Part shown: positions 18,731 to 21,587 of the stretch, in pieces | How the letters are laid out: each line of letters begins with the position of its first letter | How positions within the stretch are numbered: position 1 is the stretch's first letter | Assembly (NCBI RefSeq): GCF_001280425.1 | Contig: NZ_LIUF01000012.1 | Location: forward strand, 1-52,996 | Origin: Haloarcula rubripromontorii | GTDB taxonomy: Archaea > Halobacteriota > Halobacteria > Halobacteriales > Haloarculaceae | DNA: 52,996 nucleotides | Direction of reading: 5' to 3' | The notes under the pieces: model-generated | Told to the model about the DNA's origin: nothing | The model's database searches: none | The model's input: the letters and a program-made list of their open reading frames with translations, nothing else | Position numbers and translations under genes: made by a program

Positions 18731-19579
18731 TCACTGGCCGGAACTCCGCGAAGTCACGGACCTTGAAGAGTGTCGACGGGCGGTACTCTCGGTCGCGTTC
18801 TCAGAAGCGACCTCCCGGGCTGTGTCGACCCACCTGTGGTCCGGGAAGGTTTCGGGACGTACATCGTACGTATACCGATACTCACGCCCGTCTCCGTCGA
18901 GCGTGATATCGAACGCGTAGATAATCCCATCCTGGACCCCGAGCTGGAGCGTGCCGTTGAGAGGGGGTGAGAGAGTAGTAGCGGTGTCGCGCTCGCCCGA
19001 GAGCCGGTACGTAATTACAGGGACCGAATGGTGAGTCGTCCTGTTGATGGCCGTCCATGTGTATGCTTTGAGCATCTCTGTGTGTCGGCCGATATTTGTG
19101 GGCGCAATCTGTCCGTACCGCGGGTCGTACCGGTAATACGCGTCAGTAGTGTTATCGTACACATACGCGCTATCGGACTGCAGTTGCTCTCGCTGGTGTT
19201 CATTCGGGATACCGTCGGCCCGCTGGATGACCGCGTACGTCGTTCCGTTCCGATAGACTGTAGCGTTGTGCCACCGGTCGGCGAGTATCTCGCCTGTGGT
19301 GGAATTGATGTAGTAATCACCCTCCACGAGCCGCCGGTCGGGTGGCTCGGTGTGGACGATAGCATACGAGTCCCAGTGTGTCTGCGGTGTGTGCGATACG
19401 TTCATGCCGTGTACCTCAAGTGCCGAGAAGTTGATGTGATCCGGCCCCGCCCCTGCAGGGTATGCCTGACCGGAGTCGGATGCGAGCATCTGTGGAGGCC
19501 AGAGGCTCGTGAAAGCAAACGCCGCGACACCGACCACTACGAGTACGACAGTAAGGCCACTGACATAGCGCTGATCCAT
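18731..19579 (-). CDS. Membrane-anchored extracytoplasmic protein, unknown function
   Basis: A 282-residue protein. One N-terminal transmembrane helix (~7-27, GLTVVLVVVGVAAFAFTSLW) anchors a large outside domain with several N-x-S/T sequons, such as NSTTG, NATVY, NGTTY and NRTTH, which fits an N-glycosylated surface protein. The short Ser/Arg-rich C-terminus is unusual. The ATG at 19579 is preferred over a start 15 codons upstream, because CACTTAGTT ~28 bases before it is a better promoter fit. No recognised family. Confidence 0.75.
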   Translation of the reverse strand: MDQRYVSGLTVVLVVVGVAAFAFTSLWPPQMLASDSGQAYPAGAGPDHINFSALEVHGMNVSHTPQTHWDSYAIVHTEPPDRRLVEGDYYINSTTGEILADRWHNATVYRNGTTYAVIQRADGIPNEHQREQLQSDSAYVYDNTTDAYYRYDPRYGQIAPTNIGRHTEMLKAYTWTAINRTTHHSVPVITYRLSGERDTATTLSPPLNGTLQLGVQDGIIYAFDITLDGDGREYRYTYDVRPETFPDHRWVDTAREVASENATESTARRHSSRSVTSRSSGQ

Positions 19580-19869
19580 ACTGGGTCGAAAACCAGCGTC
19601 GGTAACTAAGTGCCCAAGAGTCAAACCAGACTTTGTCCGTTACATCGGATCAACCCACGTCTCGGTCGTGGAAGAGCGTGCTCTGTGCTGCCTACTCCGA
19701 GCCGCGACCGACCGCTCGGTGTCCTCAGCACCGACAGGGACAGCGTAACAATGTGGACGGGAACACTTTAATGTCAACTGTCTGTCTCAGCGCTTGATGA
19801 ATCCAGTGGCTGCCACGCCGGGCTAGATAAAACCGCGCCGCTAGTCAGTAGCAATTAACAGATATGAAT
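19580..19869. other. Gap downstream of the orphan 5S rRNA gene
   Basis: About 290 bases between the membrane-protein gene and the 5S 3' end. No gene is supported. On the minus strand, GCCCGGCGTGGCAGCC (~19811-19826) recalls the 5' part of a tRNA, but no anticodon stem or T-loop follows. A T-rich GGTTTTATC ~40 bases after the 5S end could serve as a terminator. Confidence 0.45.
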
Positions 19870-19991
19870 GGTGGCGGCGAACCGCGTTTCCCAGAGGCTC
19901 GCGCACTCCAGTACTCCCCGGAACGCTGGTGGGCTTATCTTCCGTGTTCGGGATGGGTACGGGAGGCAACCCCACCGCTGTGGCCGCCTAT
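19870..19991 (-). rRNA. rrf: 5S ribosomal RNA, isolated copy
   Basis: The minus strand reads a complete 122-base 5S rRNA. It begins ATAGGCGGCCACAGCGG and ends GGTTCGCCGCCACC, with the core CCCATCCCGAACACGGAAG between. The terminal helix GGCGGC/GCCGCC can form. Compared with the H. marismortui 5S sequence as I remember it, I see only a changed first base and one change near the 3' end (AAACGCGG for AAACCCGG). There is no 23S or 16S gene on either side: a membrane protein lies upstream and another downstream. This is an orphan 5S gene, not part of an rrn operon. Confidence 0.93.
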
Positions 19992-20013
19992 ACAATCCCT
20001 CTGGCAGCCACAG

Positions 20014-20019
20014 TTATAA
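20014..20019 (-). promoter_or_regulatory. TATA box of the orphan 5S gene
   Basis: On the minus strand CTCTTATAACTG places TTATAA with its centre 25-26 bases before the mature 5S 5' end. That is the normal TATA-to-start distance in haloarchaea, so the gene can be transcribed on its own, with a start at or very near the mature end. Confidence 0.65.
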
Positions 20020-20261
20020 GAGTAGCTAATCGGAGACGAGAACTATCCGAAACAGTTCAGCCGCTCAACAGTACACAGGTGACACCGATGCTATCTTCAG
20101 GCAAGTATCAGGAATTATTACATAATCTATCACAGTCATATACTGCCAATCAAACCAGAGTGTGACCGCGGTTGTCTATCCTACCCTGACACGTCTAAAC
20201 GGGTCTGTCCAGACTTGAACCGAGGATCGTGTTTGCACTGCAACTGCAGCCAGAGAACTGG

Positions 20262-21587
20262 TCAGCAGTCAGACGAAGGAACGGCAAGCGATACGCCGGC
20301 GAGGAATATCGGGAGACCGGCGATCACAACGGCGGCGGCACTGACCATGACAACTGGGATGAAAAGCACGCCCAGTCCGTACGGCGTGGGGAGTACCGGG
20401 AGGACTGGCAGCATCGACAGCACGAACCCGATAGCAGCCGTTTTTATCGCCAGCCAGCGGTTCCCGTGGCCGACTGCGTATCCGGCCGGGAGAAGCACAA
20501 ACGCAGGTCCAAGAACCAGCAGCGCTGCCACCGGGGGCGTGGAGCCGTCACTGACGACCATCGGAACTGCCGCTATTGTCGCTCCCAAGGCGATACCTGC
20601 GCCGACTACAGCGCCGCCAACGACCCTCTGATAGCTCGTGTGCTCACGGATACGCCGCTGTGACAGGGCGATGCCACAGACGAACAGCGAAGTGCCACCG
20701 CCGAACAGCGGTGCTACGGTGCCACCCAGACGCAAAACGCCCGTCGCTCCAAGAAACGACAGAACAGTCGATACCGCGCCGACACCGGCGAAGATGATAC
20801 CCGCGGACTCCCGGACGCGTTTCAAATCCCAATCAAGCCAAGCGACGCCTCCGGCGGCAGCGCCGATCAAGAGGGTAAACACCGCTGTGGGGAGGGTGAT
20901 GTATGCGAGTGCCTTCACCGCCATCACAGGTCCGAGAAGTGTGCCGACCGCAAGTAGGCTCAACAGCGGCCCGACGGCCGTCTCACGGGGGACAAAGGTT
21001 ACGATACGCCCGTCGTTGAGTTCGGTCACCGTCATCCGCTGTCCGTCGTCTGAGACGGTCGCGCCATCGATGGGCCGCCCGACTCGCATCCCGTCGGGAG
21101 CAACGACGACGAGCCGGTCAGCACCGAGGCCATCGAGGTTTCGATACCCGTAGGCCTCAGTAAACTCGCCTGTCCGGACCGTCCCGCCGATGGACTGCTC
21201 GGCGAAATCAGCCTCACGGTAGCGCAACGTTATGACACCATCGCCAGACACGTTCGCGCTCAGGAGTTCGGCGTCCCACATCGCTCTGTCGGCGATAGCG
21301 GCTCGGAGGCTCTCGTTTTCCCGAAGTTGTGTTGTCCCCTCTGTGCTAGACAGTCGGTTGTGGACGACCCACGTTGCGCTTCCGTTGTTGTCGACGGTGA
21401 CGGTAGCGTTGCTGTGAGTGACTGCGACCGAAACACCGTGTGACTCGGCTGTTGATTCAAACGAGTCACCGCAGGCGTCACACAGCGGCCGCGGCGGCGG
21501 TGCTGCGCCGGCAGGCACGGCGATACAGAGGAGCGATGTACAGACCAGACAGAGGAGGGCAAGGTGATGGCGTTGATACGGGGCCAT
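20262..21587 (-). CDS. Polytopic membrane protein with exported N-terminal domain, unknown function
   Basis: A 441-residue protein. A signal peptide (to about residue 28, ending VPAGAA) is followed by CDACGD and an extracellular ~170-residue domain. About seven or eight hydrophobic helices follow (~205-435). The exported domain begins with a possible metal- or disulfide-forming CDAC pair and contains repeated beta-like segments. The layout resembles haloarchaeal sensor-like or transport-accessory proteins, but I recognise no family. It is transcribed towards the orphan 5S gene and is divergent from the ABC transporter operon. Confidence 0.75.
   Translation of the reverse strand: MAPYQRHHLALLCLVCTSLLCIAVPAGAAPPPRPLCDACGDSFESTAESHGVSVAVTHSNATVTVDNNGSATWVVHNRLSSTEGTTQLRENESLRAAIADRAMWDAELLSANVSGDGVITLRYREADFAEQSIGGTVRTGEFTEAYGYRNLDGLGADRLVVVAPDGMRVGRPIDGATVSDDGQRMTVTELNDGRIVTFVPRETAVGPLLSLLAVGTLLGPVMAVKALAYITLPTAVFTLLIGAAAGGVAWLDWDLKRVRESAGIIFAGVGAVSTVLSFLGATGVLRLGGTVAPLFGGGTSLFVCGIALSQRRIREHTSYQRVVGGAVVGAGIALGATIAAVPMVVSDGSTPPVAALLVLGPAFVLLPAGYAVGHGNRWLAIKTAAIGFVLSMLPVLPVLPTPYGLGVLFIPVVMVSAAAVVIAGLPIFLAGVSLAVPSSDC

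Follow-up and report, generated by a model that had tools for sequence, protein, structure and literature searches.

In Crenarchaeota/TACK archaea, 5S rRNA genes are as a rule transcribed separately, and such genes are also found in Thermoplasma (PMC8339473). The original prediction for the locus described here, i.e. that an orphan 5S gene with a fitted TATA box is unusual in archaea, thus does not hold for the archaea at large. The operon 5S genes of Haloferax volcanii have no transcription start site (TSS) of their own (PMC4983044), and the relevant passages of two papers on Haloarcula rRNA mention operon 5S genes only (PMC5368182, PMC6373231). In the literature searched, which consists of open-licence papers and is hence weak evidence of absence, we found no description of an orphan 5S gene of this kind and no separately transcribed 5S noted in haloarchaea. 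An autonomous extra 5S gene has apparently not been described in this group.

The analysed DNA (hereafter the window) is a stretch of 52,996 nucleotides from Haloarcula rubripromontorii, i.e. contig C12 of a 3.97 Mb, Haloarcula-type genome in 18 contigs. It contains a full-length 5S rRNA gene on the minus strand (19869–19991, base 1 at 19991), which is the sole Rfam match when the whole window is scanned with cmscan (RF00001, model positions 1–120, 80.5 bits against a gathering score of 38, E = 1.4e-15). No 23S or 16S gene occurs anywhere in the window, and ARAGORN finds no tRNA in it; the prediction of a full-length 5S gene standing alone is thus borne out. Two further 5S genes are present in the genome, on C6 and C8, each behind 23S sequence, so the window gene is an additional, unlinked 5S. 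The only 23S match of the genome lies on C6 and the 3' part of a 23S also precedes the C8 5S at the contig edge; neither is on C12. The orphan is 99.2% identical to both operon copies. A second 16S gene stops at the end of C1 (G000:C1:1021598-1022420), and a 23S 3' part with its 5S opens C8 (G000:C8:1-1258). Because this 16S is cut at the contig end, the second rRNA operon is probably split across contig ends. The orphan is flanked upstream by a gene for a 441-aa hypothetical protein with several hydrophobic segments (20262–21587, minus strand), which is syntenic among relatives, and downstream by one for a 297-aa hypothetical protein with a hydrophobic stretch near its N terminus (18731–19624, minus strand), which is absent at some loci. 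Both had been called membrane-protein genes; by eye they do look membrane-associated, but neither matches a Pfam or NCBIfam model.

We then compared the locus across the genus. An orphan 5S gene with the same promoter and with no 23S in its flanks is present in 14 Haloarcula genomes (14 of the 28 complete genus genomes), and most copies are syntenic and lie on a megaplasmid of the pNG700/pHH400 type. This confirms that relatives carry a conserved orphan at the same locus, a check that had been proposed with the original prediction. Four copies are on complete plasmids, i.e. pNG700 (H. marismortui, at 61599), pHH400 (H. hispanica, at 122577), pHsi388 (H. sinaiiensis) and one plasmid from Haloarcula sp. 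CBA1115; a pattern scan also finds the orphan, within the same 14, in H. sebkhae, H. amylolytica, H. mannanilytica, H. argentinensis, H. vallismortis and H. japonica. An assembly error with a 23S gene nearby, the escape that the original prediction had left for itself, is ruled out by these independent assemblies and complete plasmids. The RefSeq tables of the four plasmids each skip one locus tag right at the 5S (RR_RS02515, HAH_RS17870, SG26_RS17470 and KDQ40_RS19210), which suggests, on our reading of gene tables that omit RNA genes, that the RefSeq annotation already includes an RNA gene at this place.

In a tree built from rpoB' nucleotide sequences, the 14 orphan-bearing genomes form one group (support 0.85) with no orphan-less member inside, and G020 is the closest relative that lacks the orphan. 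The orphan appears to have had a single origin, at the root of one Haloarcula clade, and no loss is seen there. The clade is young, so part of the conservation of the orphan reflects shared ancestry. At twelve loci the upstream 441-aa gene is kept along with further genes of the window. On one side the kept neighbours include an ABC transporter; on the opposite side they include SCO, formamidase or thermosome genes, and the content of the fetched stretches varies. The G004 locus shares one side and fragments, and that of G012 shares no neighbours within 4 kb; the promoter is kept at both. The whole window is homologous to pNG700 and pHH400, which are collinear and probably ancestral (PMC3528665). 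The locus also takes insertions: both H. marismortui and H. hispanica have a nitroreductase gene there, and H. hispanica has in addition acquired Trk potassium-uptake genes and a gene for a universal stress protein. A second, unrelated orphan 5S gene (L045:6001-6122; G022:C5:135376-135497; 90.7% identical) has neither a 23S gene nor the TATA/palindrome element, and a convergent ORF that resembles RNase J by eye ends ∼470 bases from its 3' end. This second 5S may be functional, since it scores 82.1 bits against Rfam and retains the A5-U118 pair of helix I.

The promoter of the 14 orphans, AGTAGCTAC-N-CTTATA, is far more conserved than its flanks. The predicted minus-strand TTATAA some 25 bases before the 5' end is indeed present (20014–20019, minus strand, read from 20019 to 20014); it spans −28 to −23 from base 1 and is centred at −25.5, and CTTATA is invariant at all 14 loci. 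At the usual position of a BRE lies a palindromic element (20022–20029, minus strand; consensus GTAGCTAC, in the window TTAGCTAC) conserved to about the same degree as the TATA box; in the window copy an outer base is altered and TAGCTA remains. A GTGGC motif just 3' of the TATA box (20007–20011, minus strand; −20 to −16) is likewise conserved, giving a long consensus of tctcCaAGTAGCTAC-N-CTTATA-agtGTGGC. The spacing between promoter and 5S gene is fixed, with no insertion or deletion at any of the 14 loci. Mean conservation per column is 1.84 bits at −40 to −31 and 1.50 bits at −30 to −21, against 0.32 bits at −200 to −61, in an ungapped comparison that overstates distant divergence because indels break the register but that little affects the contrast within the last 60 bases. 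Conservation stays above background down to −1, with peaks at −40 to −20 and at −1. The TATA box is beyond chance, because every orphan carries an unchanged CTTATA at one and the same distance while the distal region averages so few bits.

This promoter is specific to the orphan. The exact pattern AGTAGCTACNCTTATA occurs once each in 12 of the 32 genus genomes, always before the orphan; in G000 and G030 it is present with a single change. The 16-base promoter pattern is found at most once per genome, only before the orphan 5S, in the 32 genus genomes, and the linked promoter–5S pattern was not found in the other 21 genera of the family. The palindrome does not mark a general regulon: its one-mismatch relatives are no commoner than a reversed-pattern control, and the exact pattern precedes the orphan only. 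Nor did a search of the class with this TATA spelling reveal like orphans: outside Haloarcula, hits to TTATA-spacer-GGCGGCCA are scattered and about as numerous as those of the control, and none of the 30 such loci fetched contains a 5S gene. Haloarchaeal promoter motifs have been described as TTWT for the TATA box and CGAAA for the BRE (PMC4983044), and the TTAT of the orphan fits the former. The CGAAA motif is absent at the orphan promoter, its position being occupied by GTAGCTAC. Not every archaeal promoter needs a good BRE match, and so this absence does not exclude a working promoter.

Base 1 itself provides the best evidence on where transcription begins. On the basis of the H. marismortui 5S sequence and of the start of the Rfam model, we take base 1 to be the mature 5' end. 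It is a purine in all 14 orphans (13 A and one G) and T in all 25 operon copies compared. The orphans also share T at −1, so that the junction reads T|A or T|G; in the window the putative start (19991–19992, minus strand), located by sequence comparison, has T at −1 and A at +1, a pyrimidine–purine step. By contrast, the operon 5S genes of orphan-bearing genomes read G|TTAGGCGG at base 1, after a conserved spacer end of the CGACTCG(A/G)C type. In most copies base 1 is unpaired with its nominal partner, and the 5S fold therefore demands no particular letter there. RNA polymerase in archaea favours a purine start after a pyrimidine. A TATA box centred at −25.5 combined with a base-1 purine after T points to initiation at base 1. 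The original prediction, that transcription could start at or very near base 1 with no 5' processing, is thus plausible in view of the fixed spacing and the purine switch. The operon 5S genes of H. volcanii have no TSS of their own, so the mode that we infer for the orphan would differ from the operon mode.

The mature sequence resembles that of an ordinary 5S RNA. Mean column identity among the orphans is 98% in the 14 genomes, and in some species the orphan is identical to the operon 5S except at base 1; a 5S pseudogene was rejected, as the gene is full length and shows no decay. Two bases separate the window copy from the operon copies of its genome: base 1 (A instead of T) and base 12 (C instead of T). 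Over bases 3–120, base 12 is the sole difference from them, and operon copies with exactly the sequence of the window copy occur in H. marismortui, H. hispanica, G027 and G031. Two changes had been predicted relative to the H. marismortui sequence, and read as slow divergence or a condition-specific variant. They hold against that reference sequence only: the two differences from the genome's own operons are at bases 1 and 12, and AAACGCGG is shared by the orphan and these operons. Since AAACGCGG occurs in operon copies of the same genome and of H. marismortui (two of its three, L080, L081 and L082; the third has AAATCCGG), as well as in those of H. hispanica and in other operons, it is an ordinary allele, and neither reading of it stands. 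The form attributed to the H. marismortui ribosome structure, AAACCCGG, equals neither AAACGCGG nor AAATCCGG of the genomic operon copies.

Pairing changes among the orphans are consistent with the 5S fold. Relative to their own operons, the orphans of H. marismortui and G024 show a compensatory change from U18-A62 to C18-G62; pair 74-106 shows a one-sided change and 73-107 is broken in some rows. Variable sites are few, and covariation support comes from one pair. Single-sequence folding is not significant (z −1.23) and is uninformative either way. H. marismortui is a classic organism of ribosome structure. At bases 1, 18, 41 and 62 its orphan reads A, C, U and G where the operon copies have U, U, C and A, so that the orphan share of ribosomal 5S would be readable by RNA sequencing.

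At the other end of the gene, the 3' end and trailer CCATTCATA (19863–19871, minus strand) are conserved and also follow operon 5S genes, and conservation drops after about +132. No hairpin-plus-T (intrinsic-type) terminator was found after the orphan 5S. A weakly conserved block, GAGCGACGCG followed by TGCTGTAG, lies ∼148–170 bases from base 1 in most orphans (window 19822–19844, minus strand); it may signal termination or 3' processing.

The account that we consider likely, judged from sequence comparison, is that the orphan is a functional extra 5S rRNA gene, forming its own transcription unit with a start at base 1, whose RNA joins ribosomes and adds to the 5S supply. It is probably a working gene, because the same gene with the same precisely placed promoter is present in every sampled member of the clade. 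In this mechanism, (i) TBP would bind CTTATA at about −26; (ii) TFB and/or another factor would bind the palindromic GTAGCTAC just upstream; and (iii) RNA polymerase would start at base 1, on a purine where the operons have U. An RNA that starts there would need no cleavage, of the kind that releases 5S from the operon transcript, to have its final 5' end. Its 3' end would be trimmed, the RNA would enter ribosomes alongside operon-derived 5S, and the 5S supply would be raised or buffered independently of the rRNA operons. Extra dosage is the simplest idea for its purpose. The conservation of the palindrome, about as strong as that of the TATA box, and its uniqueness to this gene would also fit a regulated or specialized 5S, in which a regulator or a particular TFB binds the palindrome and the orphan is made under certain conditions (e.g. 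stress, stationary phase or temperature) and marks a subset of ribosomes. Haloarcula does use different 16S genes according to temperature (PMC5368182, PMC6373231). However, the mature RNA is nearly operon-like, and identical to it bar base 1 in some species, so its sequence gives no sign of a separate ribosome type, and no regulator was identified; we regard this possibility as unlikely, though not negligible. A related idea, to which we give similarly little weight, is that a dedicated regulator or alternative TFB at the palindrome sets the 5S supply apart from the operons, such that ribosome assembly would be tuned by 5S alone and ribosomes would contain 5S with a triphosphorylated purine at its start.

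Two further readings were considered. By permutation, the orphans are somewhat closer to their own operons than chance predicts (P = 0.04), a hint of some gene conversion, and both share one trailer stretch; the gene might accordingly be a silent relic of an operon 5S, kept similar by conversion and not by its own function. Conversion with the operons cannot account for a promoter that does not resemble theirs yet keeps its spacing at 14 loci, nor for the base-1 purine in all of them, which would have outlasted any such exchange, and decayed copies are not seen in the clade. We find a relic improbable. Since the upstream 441-aa gene lies on the same strand, the 5S could instead be read through from an upstream promoter and processed as in an operon, the TATA box serving something else. 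This is very improbable: the orphans lack CGACTCGACG before TTAGG, the context in which operon 5S is processed, and the upstream neighbour varies, as with the nitroreductase insertion noted above, while the promoter is constant.

If transcribed as proposed, the preferred reading of a self-contained extra gene means that a 5S free of operon processing exists while the operon copies persist, and the orphan gives a clean natural setting in which to ask why more 5S than 23S should be needed. Compared with the 5S genes of the Haloarcula rrnA/B/C operons, the orphan has a nearly identical mature RNA and the same trailer, CCATTCATA, but the operon 5S has U after G and is cut from a long precursor, whereas the orphan is preceded by a separate promoter and begins with a purine after T. 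Plasmid rRNA operons (e.g. in Halomicrobium, Halorussus, Natrinema and Halorubrum) likewise place 5S on a large plasmid, but all nine other haloarchaeal plasmid 5S genes tested sit behind a full 23S and none is an orphan. In Crenarchaeota/TACK archaea and Thermoplasma, 5S is unlinked from 16S–23S and independently transcribed, as is probably the case for the orphan. There, however, an unlinked 5S is the normal arrangement, whereas the Haloarcula orphan is an extra megaplasmid copy in a euryarchaeon that retains its operon 5S. Independent 5S is itself known; what appears to be new is the combination of an extra copy, a euryarchaeon with intact operons, a megaplasmid location and a unique palindromic promoter.
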